Origin: a virus
Virus record (IMG/VR): IMGVR_UViG_3300030099_006531
Span: 1 to 21,766 of that record
Strand: one strand, 5' to 3'
DNA: 21,766 bases
The notes below the pieces were generated by a model. That model was not told the DNA's origin, did no database searches, and was given only the letters and a program-made list of their open reading frames with translations. Shown here piece after piece: positions 4,603-14,119 of the stretch; the stretch's first letter is position 1, and each line of letters opens with the position of its first letter. The position numbers and the translations under genes are program-made.

Positions 4603-5494
4603 TTCACAATATCAAGGAGCAGAAGAAGCGAAAGATAATGTAAGTGTTGAAGAAATACAGCCTTCAACATTAGAAAATATTGATTTTGCTTTTTTCGACT
4701 TTATCAATAAAAAGATGGATAATAGATCGACAACCAACGAAGGTTGGAAAAAAACACCAGTCGTATGGGCTTCCGCGGAGCGTTCTTTTTTATCAAAAAA
4801 TGACCAAGATTTAAGAGATGTCGACGGAACTTTAAATCTTCCGATTATCTCAATAGAGAGAACATCAGTCAATAAAAGTTTGACTAGAAAAGGTCAATAC
4901 TATGGTTTATCAACAGATTTTTCTGAAGATAATAGATTTGGTAGAATAGTTTTAGCAAAAAAGATAGTTAGAGATAAGACAAACAATTTCGCCGTTGCGG
5001 ATAACAGAAAAAGATTTGGCAATTCTGTAAACAGAATTAGAAATAGACAGGCATATTTTCCAAAAAAAGAAAACAATAAAGTGGTTTATGAGACAATAAA
5101 CATACCACTACCAAATTATGTCTCTGTCAATTATACGGTGTTGTTGAGAACTGAGTATGTCCAGCAGATGAATGAGCTAATGGCGCCATTTATAACATTA
5201 GGATCTGCTATAAATTATTTTGTTATAGAAAAAAATGGTCATCGTTACGAAACGTTTTTACAAGAGGGGCTAAACTTATCAAACAACGTATCATCTTTGG
5301 GGACCGACGAAAGAATGTACAAAACAGAAATTAATTTTGAAGTTCTGGGCTACATTATAGGTGAAGGCCCCAATGGAGAAAGGCCCAAGGCGATAAGAAG
5401 AGAAAATGCCGTTGATGTTAAAATTTCAAGAGAAAGGGTTATAGTTGGAGATATTCCAGAGTACGGTGACGGTAAATCATTTTATGTAGAATAA
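4592..5494 (+). CDS. gp15: Tail terminator / sheath stabiliser, gp15-like
   Basis: The T4 gp15 ring caps the finished tube and sheath and provides the surface for head joining. Matches to that family include VVWASAERSF near residue 57 (T4 has ITYASKEHF), a NLPIISIERTSV strand, and a C-terminal half with VNYTVLLRTEYVQQMNELMA (T4: IYELSIFTRYEDDMFQIVEQ) and YKTEINFEVLGYI (T4: IEWSLTFEVNGWM). At 300 aa it is a little longer than T4 gp15 (272 aa). The start is ATG 4592, because AAAGGA at 4579-4584 is 7 bases away. The TTG just upstream (4589) is only 4 bases from it. The ATG lies inside the gp14-like gene, an 11-base overlap. The first 28 residues are acidic and probably disordered. Arginine is almost always AGA here. 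Confidence 0.8.
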   Translation: MGDSSQYQGAEEAKDNVSVEEIQPSTLENIDFAFFDFINKKMDNRSTTNEGWKKTPVVWASAERSFLSKNDQDLRDVDGTLNLPIISIERTSVNKSLTRKGQYYGLSTDFSEDNRFGRIVLAKKIVRDKTNNFAVADNRKRFGNSVNRIRNRQAYFPKKENNKVVYETINIPLPNYVSVNYTVLLRTEYVQQMNELMAPFITLGSAINYFVIEKNGHRYETFLQEGLNLSNNVSSLGTDERMYKTEINFEVLGYIIGEGPNGERPKAIRRENAVDVKISRERVIVGDIPEYGDGKSFYVE

Positions 5495-8531: not shown

Positions 8532-9119
8532 ATGTCTAAGTTTTGGAACAACAGTGGCCTAGAGCCAAAAAGAGGATATAAATTTCAAATGAGTATTTCT
8601 GGTGTAGATGGACAGTCGAATATACCAGCATACATTGTTAAAACTGCAAAAAAGCCAACTTTTACTATGAGTGGCCCTGCAGAGGTCAAGTATATACAGC
8701 ACACATTTAAATACCCCGGTAGGGTTACCTGGGATCCTGTTGATGTTACTATTCTAGATCCAATGACTCCTGACTCGGCGCGCATATTAATGAACATGTT
8801 AGCCATTTCTGGCTACGCACAACCAGCAGATCCACAAGCTGCGTTAACATCAATTTCCAAGGCAAAGGCAGGATTAGCAGTTGGCGGTGTTAAATTAGCT
8901 GAGATTAACTCAGATGGAGCGCAAGTTTCAGAGTGGATGCTTTGGAACCCATATTTCTCTGGTGTGGATTTTGGCTCACTTGGATATGATAGCGATGACT
9001 TGATTGAGTATACTCTGACAATTCAATATGATTATGCAACTTACAGAGTTAGCAATCCAGAACAAGCTGGCGGCCAAGTACTACCAGCGGTGAGACACTC
9101 ATCACAAGGTCGTGGCTAA
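8532..9119 (+). CDS. gp19: Tail tube protein, gp19-like
   Basis: The major subunit of the inner tail tube, stacking as hexameric rings inside the sheath. It opens MSKFWNNSGLEPKRGYKFQM, with the beta strands that start gp19-type proteins, followed by the family's insertion loop (AYIVKTAKKPTFTM) and a C-terminal half with WMLWNPYFSGVDFGSLGYDS and the strand EYTLTIQYDYATY. At 195 aa it is slightly longer than T4 gp19 (163 aa), with an added loop near residues 95-120. It sits directly behind the sheath, as 18-19 do in T4. The start has AAGGAGA with a suitable spacer. A second, diverged copy of this fold follows 21 bases later. Confidence 0.9.
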   Translation: MSKFWNNSGLEPKRGYKFQMSISGVDGQSNIPAYIVKTAKKPTFTMSGPAEVKYIQHTFKYPGRVTWDPVDVTILDPMTPDSARILMNMLAISGYAQPADPQAALTSISKAKAGLAVGGVKLAEINSDGAQVSEWMLWNPYFSGVDFGSLGYDSDDLIEYTLTIQYDYATYRVSNPEQAGGQVLPAVRHSSQGRG

Positions 9120-9140: not shown

Positions 9141-9788
9141 TTGTCTAACTTTTGGAATCAATCTACAATAAAACCTAAAAGATCATTTCAATGGGTAGGC
9201 TATATGAATTTATTTAGTGGAGACGAAAGTGCTATCACTGATCTCGGACCAGCACCGTTTTTAGTATCAACTTTTACAAAACCAAAGTTTACTTTTGATA
9301 ATGAAACATTAATCAATAATTTTACTTCACAGACCGAAATCATAACAAAAAATTATGTGTGGGAAGACATTGCGCTAACAATAATAGATATTCAAAATAG
9401 AAAACAAAATGCTTCAAACGCAGTTTATTCGTGGCTAACCAGTATAGGATATGAGCCGGAACAAACTTTAACTCAATTAAGTACTCTGTTTGGAAATCTA
9501 GATAATAAAAAACTTAGTTTACGTTTACAACATATAGACTCTGAGGGTAAACCTTTCGAAGAGTGGAGTTTTACAAAACCACAAATAACTTCCATTGATT
9601 TCGGTGGTGAATTAAGCTATGATTCAGAAGAAGTGTTAAGAATTAATATTGGCATTACTTATGTAGCGGCCACATATAATTTAATTGGCGCCGCGCCTTC
9701 TGAAACACCAGGTGAACTTAACTTTACACCGGGACCAGTTGGTCAATCTCTAGTACCAGGAGAGTTTTCCCCGGGCGGTATAATTTAG
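9141..9788 (+). CDS. Second tail tube-fold protein (gp19 paralog)
   Basis: A 215-aa paralog of the preceding tube protein. Both start MS-FWN-S--PKR, both have a F/T-KPxFTF/M turn after the first strands (STFTKPKFTFDN here), and both end with a strand pair around SIDFGGELSYDSEEVL and ITYVAATYN (VDFGSLGYDSDDLIE and YDYATY in gp19). Sequence identity outside these points is low. T4-like phages use gp19-fold proteins as tube initiators in the baseplate (gp48 and gp54), so this may be a specialised ring at one end of the tube or a minor tube subunit. Its place directly behind gp19 favours a tube function. The TTG start would lower its yield relative to gp19, consistent with a minor component (inference). 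The C-terminal 30 residues are Pro/Gly-rich and likely flexible. Confidence 0.8.
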   Translation: MSNFWNQSTIKPKRSFQWVGYMNLFSGDESAITDLGPAPFLVSTFTKPKFTFDNETLINNFTSQTEIITKNYVWEDIALTIIDIQNRKQNASNAVYSWLTSIGYEPEQTLTQLSTLFGNLDNKKLSLRLQHIDSEGKPFEEWSFTKPQITSIDFGGELSYDSEEVLRINIGITYVAATYNLIGAAPSETPGELNFTPGPVGQSLVPGEFSPGGII

Positions 9789-9843: not shown

Positions 9844-10686
9844 ATGAGAAACAATCAAGATCGTCTTGGGCTTGGAGTCCCAAATGAAAACTTGCAGTCT
9901 TCTACGGAACCACCGCAAGAAGTCCCGAGTCAAGTACAGTTTATTGTACCAACAGAAATTGTAGAGCTTCCAAGTGGAGGTTTATTTTATCCTGAAGGTC
10001 ATCCACTTCACGGAAGAGACACAGTAGAAATAAAACACATGACCACTAAAGAAGAGGATATATTAACAAACAAATCTTTTATTAAAAATGGCACTGTTAT
10101 TGATAGATTGCTTAAGTCGGTTATAGTTGAGCCAAAGGTTAATGTTTCTGATATTCTAGTTGGCGATAAAAATGCTCTTGTGGTGGCTTGTAGAAAGTAT
10201 GGTTACGGGTCAGAGTACACAACAAAGGTAAGCTGCAACTCTTGTGGTGCTCCGCAGAAATATACTTTTGATTTGGAAGAAATTGAAAACATTGATTTTC
10301 AATCTAATCTAGATTATTATGATGCGTCAATCGATTATGAAAATCAAACGGTCACTCTTCCGATACCTAGAACAAAAACAAAACTAGAATTAAGAATCTT
10401 AAAAGATGAAAGAAACCCGCAAGCAAATAAAAAGAGAAAAGATACTAATCTGGTAAGCAAGCAGTACAAAAAGATTATTTTTTCTGTTAATGACAACTCA
10501 GATCCTAGATATATTCAATCCTATATTGATTCAATGTCTGCACTAGATAGCCGCTATCTAAGAGCGGCTTACAATAAAATTGTTCCTGGAGTTGATTTTA
10601 GTTGCGAGTTTGAATGCTCAGAATGCGGAGCAGAGACTAAAATGGAGGTTCCGCTTAATGCGGAGTTTTTTTGGCCTGACGCTTGA
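9844..10686 (+). CDS. gp26: gp26-like baseplate/tail assembly protein with zinc-type cysteine pairs
   Basis: It resembles the family called T4 bacteriophage base plate protein (T4 gp26). Signature segments are ELPSGGLFYPEGHPLHGRD (41-59), IKHMTTKEEDILTNKSFIK (63-81) and a downstream helix VIDRLLKSVIVEP. Two CxxC pairs, C131-C134 (CNSCG) and C258-C261 (CSECG), could form one zinc site. The section 217-250 (DPRYIQSYIDSMSALDSRYL) is helical. The first 30 residues are polar and Pro/Gln-rich. Length 280 aa against 208 in T4. It lies between the tube genes and the tape measure, where most tailed phages place the tail assembly chaperone, and its 3' end overlaps a small ORF in the +1 frame. I therefore suspect a chaperone role for tube or tape measure (inference). 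A seven-T run at 10666-10672 lies just before its stop. Confidence 0.75.
   Translation: MRNNQDRLGLGVPNENLQSSTEPPQEVPSQVQFIVPTEIVELPSGGLFYPEGHPLHGRDTVEIKHMTTKEEDILTNKSFIKNGTVIDRLLKSVIVEPKVNVSDILVGDKNALVVACRKYGYGSEYTTKVSCNSCGAPQKYTFDLEEIENIDFQSNLDYYDASIDYENQTVTLPIPRTKTKLELRILKDERNPQANKKRKDTNLVSKQYKKIIFSVNDNSDPRYIQSYIDSMSALDSRYLRAAYNKIVPGVDFSCEFECSECGAETKMEVPLNAEFFWPDA
10644..10648 (+). promoter_or_regulatory. Ribosome binding site inside the gp26-like gene
   Basis: GGAGG sits 9 bases before an ATG at 10658 that is in the +1 frame relative to the gp26-like gene. It fixes the start of the overlapping 70-aa ORF. The longer open frame beginning at 10580 has no comparable signal. Confidence 0.6.
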
Positions 10687-10870
10687 GTACGTTAAACAAG
10701 TTTACGAACAATTTTTCTACATGAAATATTACGGGGGCTGGAGTTTCTTTGAGTTATATAATCTTCCTGTAGGTCTTAGAAACTGGTATATTACAATGTT
10801 GTCAGATCAAAAAGAAAAAGAATCAGAAGAAATAAAGAAATCATCCAAGTCCAATTACAATCCCCGCTAA
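10658..10870 (+). CDS. Small overlapping ORF resembling tail-assembly-chaperone partner (P2 E'/lambda T type)
   Basis: A 70-aa product from ATG 10658 overlapping the end of the gp26-like gene by 29 bases in the +1 frame. Its centre, YYGGWSFFELYNLPVGLRNW, follows the pattern of the short P2 E' domain (hydrophobic-W-x-P/S-x-ELY-x-(L/P)-x2-L-x2-W), and the tail is highly charged (DQKEKESEEIKK). In many phages such a domain is made only as an extension of the upstream chaperone by ribosomal frameshifting, upstream of the tape measure gene. Here both genes are in that position. Independent initiation is possible because GGAGG precedes ATG 10658, but a +1 slip on the T run at 10666-10672 would fuse it to the gp26-like protein, giving about 341 aa. 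The similarity to E' is by pattern only. Confidence 0.6.
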   Translation: MRSFFGLTLEYVKQVYEQFFYMKYYGGWSFFELYNLPVGLRNWYITMLSDQKEKESEEIKKSSKSNYNPR

Positions 10871-10942
10871 AGAATAATTTAATATTTAAAACTATTTACT
10901 TTTATGGAAAACAAAACTATTATCGATCTAGAGGAAATGAAA

Positions 10943-11233
10943 ATGGTTAACGAAGTCTTAGGCTCTTCGTTAGTTGCTTTCGGCGCTAAAATAAAGCAAA
11001 TGCTTTTTTCTATGTTTAGTGAAACTGGTGAAGATTATAGAACTTTCTACATAAAAGGCAGAAAACCCGACATTCTTTCATTCGGCGCTGCACTTGCTTC
11101 CGAAAAAAAATATATGGATTCCTACCTAAAGCACGGCTTAAACGACCCCGGTGTTCTTAAAAATCGGTATCGACTCGAAAGAGCAATTGAAAAATTTGAA
11201 AAAGAGACTGGTATTAAGTGGCCCTTAAAATAA
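10943..11233 (+). CDS. Unknown 96-aa helical protein before the tape measure
   Basis: No family is recognised. The product is predicted mostly helical: an amphipathic first helix (SSLVAFGAKIKQMLFSMFSE), a central polar stretch and a charged C-terminal helix ending KETGIKWPLK. There is no signal peptide or true membrane segment. The ORF is open from ATG 10904 (109 aa), but that ATG has no ribosome binding site. ATG 10943 has GAGG at 10931-10934 with an 8-base spacer and is preferred. If the longer form is real it adds 13 residues (MENKTIIDLEEMK). The gene ends 12 bases before the tape measure ATG, whose ribosome binding site overlaps its stop, so the two are probably co-translated. A tail assembly or tape-measure-binding role is a guess from position. 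Confidence 0.65.
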   Translation: MVNEVLGSSLVAFGAKIKQMLFSMFSETGEDYRTFYIKGRKPDILSFGAALASEKKYMDSYLKHGLNDPGVLKNRYRLERAIEKFEKETGIKWPLK

Positions 11234-11245
11234 GGACAATTGTAA

Positions 11246-14119
11246 ATGGCTGATTTTGATATTGAACAATTTAAGGAACAAGAAGCAGCTGCAGAAAAAC
11301 TTAAAGAGCTATACGATAAAATAGAAGAAAAAAATATAGATATCAATAGCGCTCTTGAATTCCAATTAGAAAATCAAAAAAGAGTGATTGATGCCTTAAG
11401 AGAGGAAATGGGCGCCCAGGCTGATTTGCTTAGAATGAGCGAGTTACAACAGAAAACTCTTGAAGATGTTCTTGCAAGAGAAGAAGACAAACTGAGATTG
11501 TCCAAAGAGCTTCAAAGATTACAGAAAGCTGAGAAAGTGGGTCTAGACCAACAACAACAGCAGCGATTAGCAGAATTAAAAACAATAGAAAAAAGTCTTG
11601 TTTTAGACAAAGAAGAACTAAAAGAGTTAGAAAAACAAGTTAAAACCTTAAAAGCTAAAAACAAAGAACTTGATAAAATTAACGCCACTCAGAAAAATGT
11701 CGATGCATTACTAGAAAGAGAGTTTAAGCAAAGAACAGGCTTAGTAACATCTTCTCAAAGCCTTGCGCAAGAAATGGCGCGTATCGCAGTGGAAGGTGGG
11801 AATTCTATGGAGTTCCTTAATGGTGCGGCTCAAAACATGAACGCTCAATTAACAAAAGCGAATTTGCTTAATTCAGCTATGGCAAAAATGGGAGAGCTAG
11901 GTCAACAATTTAATAGCACGATGTTAGACACCAATGGTTTGTTAATGGAAATGTCGCAAGCTGATATTCGATTTGTTAGAGATACGGGATTAACCAGAGA
12001 ATTAGGAAACGAAGTTAGAAACTTACGTTTTGATTTTAATGCAATCAAGTTTACGGCCGCAGAAACAGATCAAGCTTTTAGAGGATTAACACAATCCTTT
12101 ACAGACTTTACAGAAGTTACACCAAACACAAGGAGAGAATTAACTGAGAATGCAGCAGTATTAGAACGCTTTGGAGTCCAATCAGACACCACCGGTAAAT
12201 CACTTGATGGCTTTACAAAAGCAATGGGAAAAACACCACAAGCTGCAATGAAATCAACAAAGGAAATGGTTAAATTCGCTAGGGCACTCGGAGTAGGTCC
12301 TAACAAGTTACTAGGCGATTTAAATCAAAACTTTGAGATTTTCGCAGAGTTTGGAATGAAAAAAGGTGTAGAGGTATTTAAAAAGCTACAAACGGCAGCA
12401 AAGCAAACTGGTATTGAGTTCGGTAAGCTTACTGGCATAATCGACAAGTTTGATCAAAGTATAGAGGGCACAATGGAAGCCGCAGGTGATTTAAACTTCT
12501 TCCTTGGCGGCCCTTTTATAAACTCGATGGAACTTCTAGAAGCCGAAGGACCAGAGAAATTTGAGATCTTAAGAAGCGCCGTTGAAGCTAGTGGTAAATC
12601 TTTTGATCAATTTGGTCGTTTTCAAAAGCGAGCTATTGCCGGTATATTAAGCACGGACGTTGAAACTGCCGCACGTATGTTTAAAGGAACTGCAGGAGAC
12701 ATTGATGCCGCAACAGCAGCTGTAGATGGACAGGCTGCAAAAATGCAAAGCTTGAACAAGGAGGCAAAAAATCTAACAACACTTCAAGAGGAAGAGACAC
12801 TAGTGCGAGAAGCACAAGCAGCTGCAATGAAAGATTTTGCAAAAGCTATAGAGGGAGTGAATAGATTAATCCTCGAATTAAAACAAACGTTTGCACCTCT
12901 TGTGGTTACTCTCGGAGCCGTAGCCACCGCTGCCGGCACGCTTTTTAATGGTTTTATGATGTATAAAACTTTATTTGGTGGAGGAGGCGCTATAAAAGAA
13001 ACTGCCGATGCAGTTCAAGAAATTGGTGATAATCTTGAAGTGGTGAAAGACCTTGGGGAAGAGGCGCTAGACCCATTAGAAAATGCCGCTCAAAGTGCAT
13101 TTGACGAATTTAAAGTAAAAGCCAAGGATGCTTTTGAAAGCTTTGGAGAAAAACTAAGTGGGATGGGTAAAAATGCAGGCAAAAAATTTGGCGAAATGAA
13201 AGACGCCGTGAGTGATTTTGGTAGCAAAGCCTTTGAAACCGCGAAAGGTGTCGGCAACGCATTTATGAAAAGTGCTGGTGGGATGCTCAAGAGTTTTGGA
13301 GGCGCTATATCCAAGGTCGCGGGCGGCTTTGTTAAAATGGCTGGGCAAGGAATAGCAGCGGCCGGAAAAATATTGGCTAGCTTTGTTACTTCTGCAGTCG
13401 GCACGCTTACAGCTTGGGTAACAGCCCAAGGAGGTTTTATGGCCGCGGCCAGCGCAATGATTGCAGCTGCAGCTCCGATTGTATTACCAATATTAGCAAT
13501 AGGCGCAGCTATCGCCGGCATTGTTATTTTTTGGGATGAACTCGTAGGTGCTTTTAGTACTGGTTTTGATTTTTTGAAAGATGCTTTTTCTGGGTATTTA
13601 GGCTTTATTAAGAGTGGTTTTAAAATGTTTTTACATGGTATGGTTATATTTGCTGAAGTTATAGCTCACGCTCTAACACTTCCGTTTACAGCCATTGTAG
13701 AGGGTGCCGCGGCAGTAATTGATCTTATACCTGGAATGGATAGTGCTGCCGACGCAGCGAGATCTTTTTCACCGGGACGAATAATAAGAACTTACGCTAG
13801 TGAAATACACGCATCAATTGATTCTTTTGAAAAGGGTACTGATGGCACTAAAGGAGGCGCATTTATTGCTGGTGATTCTACCACTGGTCCCGCGAAGCCC
13901 GAAATGGTTGTTGCACCGCCAATGAGTAGTGTGATTAATAATAAAAACCTAGAAACACTCGCTTCGCTAATACAAAACAACAACCAATCTGCCGGTACCG
14001 GACCAGTTAAAGATGCAAATATCAATGTAACGCTGAAGTTGGGTGAAAGAGAAATCGCCTCAATGACCGAAAAAATGACCAAAAAAACTGTAATGGAACT
14101 TTTAGGTCAAGGTAGATAA
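11246..14119 (+). CDS. Tail tape measure protein
   Basis: Sets tail length by running through the tube during assembly. Domain order: a long charged coiled coil at about 8-160 with a glutamine run (DQQQQQRLAE near 101-110); an alpha-helical middle (160-545) including GDLNFFLGGPFINS at 414-427; a first hydrophobic segment at about 549-578; a Gly/Phe/Lys amphipathic repeat region at 612-700 (units such as GKKFGEMKDAVSDFGSKAFE); a strongly hydrophobic alanine-rich block at 705-766 (AAAPIVLPILAIGAAIAGIV) and another at 794-828; then a Gly/Asn-rich linker and a C-terminal helix. This is standard tape measure architecture. At 957 aa the usual 0.15 nm per residue gives a tail near 140 nm (inference). 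The ribosome binding site AAGGA (11232-11236) overlaps the preceding stop. T4 uses gp29 (590 aa) for this job, and no gp29 sequence match was evident. Confidence 0.87.
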   Translation: MADFDIEQFKEQEAAAEKLKELYDKIEEKNIDINSALEFQLENQKRVIDALREEMGAQADLLRMSELQQKTLEDVLAREEDKLRLSKELQRLQKAEKVGLDQQQQQRLAELKTIEKSLVLDKEELKELEKQVKTLKAKNKELDKINATQKNVDALLEREFKQRTGLVTSSQSLAQEMARIAVEGGNSMEFLNGAAQNMNAQLTKANLLNSAMAKMGELGQQFNSTMLDTNGLLMEMSQADIRFVRDTGLTRELGNEVRNLRFDFNAIKFTAAETDQAFRGLTQSFTDFTEVTPNTRRELTENAAVLERFGVQSDTTGKSLDGFTKAMGKTPQAAMKSTKEMVKFARALGVGPNKLLGDLNQNFEIFAEFGMKKGVEVFKKLQTAAKQTGIEFGKLTGIIDKFDQSIEGTMEAAGDLNFFLGGPFINSMELLEAEGPEKFEILRSAVEASGKSFDQFGRFQKRAIAGILSTDVETAARMFKGTAGDIDAATAAVDGQAAKMQSLNKEAKNLTTLQEEETLVREAQAAAMKDFAKAIEGVNRLILELKQTFAPLVVTLGAVATAAGTLFNGFMMYKTLFGGGGAIKETADAVQEIGDNLEVVKDLGEEALDPLENAAQSAFDEFKVKAKDAFESFGEKLSGMGKNAGKKFGEMKDAVSDFGSKAFETAKGVGNAFMKSAGGMLKSFGGAISKVAGGFVKMAGQGIAAAGKILASFVTSAVGTLTAWVTAQGGFMAAASAMIAAAAPIVLPILAIGAAIAGIVIFWDELVGAFSTGFDFLKDAFSGYLGFIKSGFKMFLHGMVIFAEVIAHALTLPFTAIVEGAAAVIDLIPGMDSAADAARSFSPGRIIRTYASEIHASIDSFEKGTDGTKGGAFIAGDSTTGPAKPEMVVAPPMSSVINNKNLETLASLIQNNNQSAGTGPVKDANINVTLKLGEREIASMTEKMTKKTVMELLGQGR

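Follow-up and report, generated by a model that had tools for sequence, protein, structure and literature searches.

In the window (the whole stretch of 21,766 nucleotides analysed here), a gp26-like gene is overlapped at its end by a small ORF in another reading frame, ahead of the tape measure gene, which raises the question of whether the two ORFs encode separate proteins or a single tail assembly chaperone made in two lengths. The surroundings are a T4-like structural module, comprising genes for a gp23-type capsid protein, the sheath and two tube paralogues, the gp26-like gene, the small ORF, a 109-aa ORF and the tape measure gene. The gp26-like gene and the small ORF sit between the tube genes (starting at 8532 and 9141) and the tape measure gene (starting at 11246), as tail assembly chaperone genes do. 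A preliminary description of this DNA had proposed a chaperone pair with a possible +1 frameshift, a proposal supported by a PF12322 match, the gene position, structure matches and a conserved slip site. Our analysis indicates that the two overlapping ORFs very probably constitute one tail assembly chaperone gene, the long form of which would be produced by programmed +1 frameshifting. The features of the locus are as follows.

8532–9119 and 9141–9788: adjacent pair of tail tube paralogues, both matching phrog_4542
9844–10686, + strand: gp26-like gene, predicted short chaperone (TAC-N; counterpart of lambda G and T4 gp26), from PF12322, phrog_150 and a structure model
10644–10648, + strand: GGAGG, Shine-Dalgarno-like, within the gp26 gene, from its recurrence at the site and GAG codon bias
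10650–10664, + strand: putative hairpin TCCGC-TTAAT-GCGGA between GGAGG and the slip site, from pairing counts and folding energy
10658–10660, + strand: ATG, possible own start of the small ORF in the window phage, present in 26 of 109 distinct contexts
10666–10674, + strand: proposed +1 slip site TTT_TTT_TGG (P-site UUU, A-site UGG), with YTT_TGG in 161 of 162 locus rows
10670–10870, + strand: putative extension in the +1 frame (TAC-C, the lambda T-like part; apparently similar to T4 gp51 in its C-terminal part), its first new codon after the slip at 10673, from frame conservation and profile links
10904–11233: 109-aa ORF with no convincing family match, between the chaperone pair and the tape measure gene
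11246–14119, + strand: tape measure gene, the expected chaperone client, matching phrog_167 (tail length tape measure, E 1.5e-13)

Small ORFs at the position of the 109-aa ORF were also seen in L159 (7027–7242) and L161.

Sequences examined

Two scans of viral contigs, one with the gp26-like protein as query (best 80 of 102 confirmed matches) and one with the small ORF (best 80 of 389 confirmed), yielded 157 loci. Together with seven phage records (L159–L165), the window's own copy (L158) and the window itself, 166 sequences were examined. Both proteins were detected by tblastn in 162 of the 166, the small-ORF match being absent in L161–L164. Among these 162 rows, the window sequence is present three times and some contigs were caught by both scans, leaving 109 distinct 150-nt contexts; loci and genes share ancestry, and all counts are of non-independent events. 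In the 80 loci of the gp26 scan, the seeds lay outside the overlap, and all 80 were kept in the frame counts. Codon bias was measured in the 101 gp26 genes having a start, with the same genes as background. A third scan, using the gp26 of Synechococcus phage Sf-FS3 as query (best 80 of 591), gave 81 loci with Sf-FS3 itself, 51 of them distinct.

The gp26-like protein

The gp26-like protein matched PF12322 (E 4.2e-13; 49.9 bits, above the curated cut-off of 24.5) and the baseplate hub family phrog_150 (E 4.1e-16). The same PF12322 family is matched by T4 gp26 and by residues 1–201 of T4 gp51. When 707 chains were compared with the structural model of the protein (pLDDT 84.7) by VIA-align, YqbN ranked first (Z 6.0, rmsd 7.0, 90 aligned), followed by the HK97 tail assembly chaperone (Z 5.8, rmsd 5.6, 88 aligned), with the next chain at 3.2, while Foldseek found no match in the PDB with E < 0.001 (E above 1). 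The modelled likeness to YqbN and the HK97 chaperone is middling, suggestive of a tail assembly chaperone fold rather than proof of it. We found no sequence relatives of gp26 or T4 gp51 in the PDB and no plasmid records carrying the gp26 of phage SP-15, and NCBIfam returned nothing useful. The view that gp26-like proteins of this group act as tail assembly chaperones, on which the preliminary description relied, is thus supported, and it had already been published for T4-like phages. T4 gp26 (L166, 7806–8429) also matches the gp28 family phrog_1140 (E 9.4e-4), a possible kinship between gp26 and gp28.

Conservation of the overlap and the proposed slip site

The gp26-like ORF ends in ...AEFFWPDA* and is overlapped in +1 by the 70-aa ORF (ATG at 10658, stop at 10868–10870), the +1 frame being open across the gp26-like stop up to 10870; the ORF coordinates first reported for the window were reproduced. 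The T run at 10666–10672 lies in the overlap, in the context GAG TTT TTT TGG CCT, and a +1 slip on the second TTT reads ...E-F-F-G-L-T..., both as previously described, as is the GGAGG, 9 nt ahead of the ATG. Since the window has seven runs of seven T, such a run by itself means little; it is conservation that exceeds chance.

The small frame was +1 and YTT_TGG stood in the overlap in 161 of the 162 rows (109 distinct contexts, from the scans' best 80 of 102 and best 80 of 389), the exception being L165. Relatives with the two ORFs set apart and no T run, which would have spoken for separate products, were thus not what we found: overlap, frame and slip site are conserved. The run of seven T itself stands in 134 of 161 rows, and the ATG is not conserved (26 of 109 contexts). 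The slip codons were TTT_TTT_TGG in 134 rows, TTC_CTT_TGG in 18, TTC_TTT_TGG in eight and TTT_CTT_TGG in one. The 101 gp26 genes with a start contain 24 further TGG codons elsewhere, and an NTT codon precedes none of them. The TTC_CTT and TTC_TTT rows have at most four consecutive T and an unchanged small frame; in these variants the P-site tRNA can advance by one base (from CUU to UUU, as in prfB, or from UUU to UUU) but would not be well paired after a −2 move, and their existence therefore disfavours both a −2 shift and a need for a homopolymer. Judged from these variants, the essential site appears to be YUU_UGG rather than the run of seven T. Conservation of the small-ORF protein likewise starts at the slip, with F-F-G-L.

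A −1 slippery heptamer of the lambda and P2 type (X_XXY_YYZ) was considered for the window and rejected, given the GAG that places a non-T base before TTT TTT and the +1 frame of the small ORF. The non-T base ahead of the run presumably avoids the −1 heptamer T_TTT_TTT.

In the proposed mechanism, most ribosomes would stop at 10684–10686 and release the short, gp26-like chaperone (TAC-N). In a minority, tRNA-Phe would occupy the P site on UUU (10669–10671) while UGG, the only codon for Trp, awaited decoding in the A site; these ribosomes would move one base forward, re-pair on UUU (10670–10672) and read GGC CUG ACG onwards. Reading on would add a helical C-terminal domain of about 65 residues, giving a long form (TAC-NC) that would be the counterpart of lambda GT and T4 gp51. 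As with lambda G and GT, the two forms would cover the tape measure protein and bring in tube subunits. The slippage itself, its efficiency and the role in assembly are all inferred.

Synonymous constraint, GGAGG and the hairpin

Synonymous choice is strongly biased at the upstream GGAGG, at the small hairpin and at the slip site. Across the 101 gp26 genes, Glu at the GGAGG site is encoded by GAG in 72 of 75 cases (background 31%), Pro at the site by CCG in 66 of 101 (13%), Ala at the site by GCG in 54 of 62 (15%) and Asp ahead of the run by GAC in 42 of 42 (35%), while in the dual-coded part Pro is encoded by CCT in 81 of 83 (28%). GGAGG occurred at the site in 64 of these 101 genes, whose remaining 81,525 bases contain it 45 times.

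For the window segment, the folding energy is −10.1 kcal/mol (z −3.0). All five hairpin pairs are present in 43 of the 78 distinct 36-mers, with no exclusions. In a subset of 64 of the 78, a selection that favours the hairpin, 86.3% of cells were paired compared with 82.4% in shuffles, and cells changed on both sides numbered 14 against 3.5, at two of the five pairs; the other three pairs vary in this subset solely by breaking. The 14 36-mers left out are of other sequence types (four of the TTCCTT group, plus L054, L079, L080, L131, L134, L145, L155, L156, L159 and L160). Though strong in most sequences, the hairpin is broken in the CCC-type group, and no structure was found in L060, the one TTCCTT-type sequence that was folded. 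Neither GGAGG nor the full hairpin is present in the four 36-mers of TTCCTT type or in the one of TTTCTT type, all of which represent few lineages.

The GGAGG and the hairpin are probably stimulators of the slip, and we regard them as candidates for that role. A direct action like that in prfB is opposed by distance: in the window, 20 nt separate GGAGG from the P-site codon, which is too far unless the hairpin closes, and its formation within the ribosome is hypothetical. The corresponding Shine-Dalgarno spacing in prfB is shorter. We therefore put forward, tentatively and as the less probable side of the matter, that GGAGG, the 15-nt hairpin and UUU_UGG make up a +1 recoding element with a folded spacer. 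Closure of the hairpin would shorten the distance between GGAGG and the P-site codon from 20 to about 5 nt. The internal Shine-Dalgarno sequence could then drive a forward step of the ribosome similar to that in prfB, with a sense codon in place of the stop; the CUU_UGG variants, which slip more readily on their own, would have lost both GGAGG and the hairpin. If this were true, one chaperone family would have swapped −1 and +1 sites, each with a Shine-Dalgarno spacing of its own, while keeping the same fusion.

Possible kinship of the extension

The profile of the window-type small ORF matched that of the −1 extension of cyanophages described below (P 1.4e-5), and the cyanophage profile in turn matched residues 209–245 of T4 gp51 at E 3.7e-4, the best of 2,840 shuffles reaching 0.0082. 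T4 gp51 was absent from the matches of the window-type profile itself, the link passing through the cyanophage family. By these profile links, T4 gp51, which is gp26-like in its N-terminal part, appears to resemble the small ORF in its C-terminal part. The extension alone was modelled as three helices, and the model had no viral Foldseek match with E < 0.001.

Against phrog_634 and DUF6760, the window's small protein alone scored weakly (E 0.28 and 0.044), and at E up to 0.1 its relatives matched in 14 of 35 cases (phrog_634, best 1.1e-4) and 16 of 35 (DUF6760, best 3.9e-4). DUF6760 offers a possible link of the small-ORF family (alignment A5) to cellular tail-like systems. A search for it in the phylum of G001 gave 0 of 192 genomes, an uninformative result, as the controls gave no match either. 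The likeness to P2 E' suggested in the preliminary description received no statistical support: the small-ORF profile scored P2 E' no better than shuffles (hhalign P 0.19), and the shared W..ELY..L..W is visible by eye only. Neither P2 E' nor lambda T, both tried as relatives of the extension, gave a signal over shuffles.

Shift direction in the wider family

In phages SP-15, LIS04 and GXN1 and in L161, a small ORF lies in +1 over the end of gp26. The small-ORF profile matched L161 (E 2e-9) and GXN1 (E 3.5e-5) better than all 2,840 shuffles, LIS04 (0.0052) barely so, and SP-15 (0.018) near the best shuffle (0.029). L253, a contig of an uncultured MAG, has TTT_TTT_TGG and +1. On the T4 side, the extension lies in −1 in Synechococcus phage Sf-FS3, IC12, RL38J1, Cygsa01 and phiAS5; RL38J1 has T_TTT_TTG, and Cygsa01 lacks a perfect heptamer. 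All 81 cyanophage-type loci (51 distinct; the best 80 of 591 and Sf-FS3) carry T_TTT_TTC 12 nt ahead of the gp26 stop. The extension of L165 is also in −1, behind T_TTT_TTC (small-ORF profile E 1.2e-4). T4 itself has two separate, divergent genes, gp26 and gp51, both with PF12322, and gp51 is an in-frame fusion of a gp26-like part and an extension-like part.

In a tree of 56 rows, whose deep placements are unsure owing to long branches, the +1 rows were separated from the −1 rows, which lay together with T4 on the opposite side; L165 was the exception, and three changes were counted in all. Placed on the +1 side of this tree, the 595-kb phage L165 (LR756511) is a possible second switch of direction. 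The T4-like gp26 family thus appears to show three ways to the same two products, namely a +1 shift, a −1 shift and two genes: the +1 site is conserved in many marine relatives, and related T4-like phages would use −1 or a second gene.

In the cyanophage-type loci L172–L251, an ATG stands just past the gp26 stop in all 51 distinct contexts, and a free C-terminal domain may also arise there.

Start codons and alternative explanations

The ATG position of the window is ATG in only 26 of the 109 distinct contexts and GTG in five, and ATG is absent in L002, the window's closest relative among the loci listed. Some ATG, GTG or TTG occurs upstream of the slip in 87 of the 109 contexts (an ATG in 57), and in only 32 does an upstream start have an SD-like motif. 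In the remaining 22 the open small frame has no such codon upstream of the slip, and in 12 of these none follows within 45 nt either; L038, L103 and L155 have none in the following 60 nt, and L103 lacks ATG, GTG and TTG in the entire small frame.

The preferred reading, a programmed +1 frameshift, could coexist in some phages with initiation at a start codon, the former giving the fusion and the latter a free C-terminal domain. The Shine-Dalgarno sequence and ATG of the window and the conserved ATG of the cyanophage-type loci speak for this compatible arrangement, which we consider conceivable, if rather unlikely, since start codons are not conserved in the +1 group; the cyanophage Met may reflect a constraint on the protein, and IC12 and phiAS5 have no Met right after the stop.

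Initiation as the sole route, from the ATG at 10658 behind GGAGG and coupled to termination of gp26, would yield a free protein of 70 aa instead of a fusion. The good ribosome binding site that the preliminary description offered as an alternative is indeed present in the window, where GGAGG and ATG at 9 nt spacing make separate initiation possible, and SD-like motifs before upstream starts in 32 contexts and the ATG after the gp26 stop in 51 of 51 cyanophage-type contexts point the same way. For the family as a whole, that binding site does not count as evidence, and separate initiation alone seems improbable, given how few contexts keep the ATG, the 22 without an upstream start, protein conservation that begins at the slip (FFGL) and the fusion of the domain in T4 gp51. 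Transcriptional slippage on the run of seven T, giving mixed mRNAs of which some read into the small frame, would suit the 134 of 161 rows that have the run and is very improbable in view of the 18 TTC_CTT and eight TTC_TTT rows, which keep the frame with no more than four consecutive T, and of the strong constraint on UGG and on the base ahead of the run.

Programmed +1 frameshifting is favoured because the frame and slip site are conserved, synonymous choice is constrained and starts are missing in relatives. It is further supported by the distant relatives that keep the joint: SP-15, LIS04, GXN1, L161 and L253, and, in −1, the cyanophage-type loci and L165. The in-frame joining of the two parts in T4 gp51 speaks for it too.

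Comparison with known systems

The gene of the window shares with T4 gp26 and gp51 the PF12322 domain, and its extension appears to be linked to gp51 through the cyanophage family; T4 uses two divergent genes, whereas the window would use one with a +1 site. The title of a 2022 paper on T4-like chaperones by Vladimirov, Gautam and Davidson reportedly favours a mechanism distinct from frameshifting. The cyanophage-type gp26 and 'baseplate hub assembly catalyst' form an overlapping pair with a related extension as well, but have the −1 heptamer T_TTT_TTC with GGAGGG about 9 nt upstream, in contrast to the YUU_UGG +1 site of the window type. Like lambda G/GT and P2 E/E', the window would have a two-product chaperone gene just ahead of the tape measure gene; these differ in using a −1 shift, and similarity to their extensions is undetectable in sequence. 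The Escherichia coli prfB site is CUU_UGA with an upstream Shine-Dalgarno sequence, according to the relevant passage of PMC10885494. The window type similarly has YUU in the P site followed by UG and an SD-like element upstream, with the CUU variant in 19 of 161 rows, but its A-site codon is UGG instead of a stop, and 20 nt, including a hairpin, separate its GGAGG from the P-site codon.

Tail assembly chaperones of T4-like phages are already in print (Vladimirov 2022, as cited in passages of PMC10885494 and PMC12846349); read alongside our T4 profile matches, these passages would refer to T4 genes 26 and 51. In the portions available, PMC12846349 reports poly-T −1 signals in T4-like phages, and PMC10885494 counts 350 forward shifts among 2,718 positive training cases, so that +1 chaperone-type frameshifts occur elsewhere; one is known, from a source available in part, in HSTV-2. 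The chaperone role of gp26 and gp51 in T4-like phages and +1 chaperone frameshifts in other systems are therefore already known. In a literature search covering mostly papers open without subscription, we found no publication on +1 frameshifting in gp26-type genes. What appears to be new, on comparative grounds, is the prfB-like +1 site with possible stimulators and the switch of direction within one chaperone family.

Implications

A 2016 review, in the part available, describes G-T frameshifting as widely conserved in long-tailed phages 'except T4' (PMC5009743), a statement on which a T4-like gp26 family with putative +1 and −1 shifts bears. The small gene as annotated begins at an internal ATG in SP-15, immuto, IC12 and phiAS5, and public records would thus miss or truncate the long chaperone form. 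Annotated internal-ATG pieces of the extension lie at 4836–4955 in L163, 6866–6976 in L160, 3720–3860 in L168 and 3762–3884 in L171. The switch of direction within the family would be a natural setting in which to compare how shift direction depends on the bases that flank the slip site and on Shine-Dalgarno spacing.
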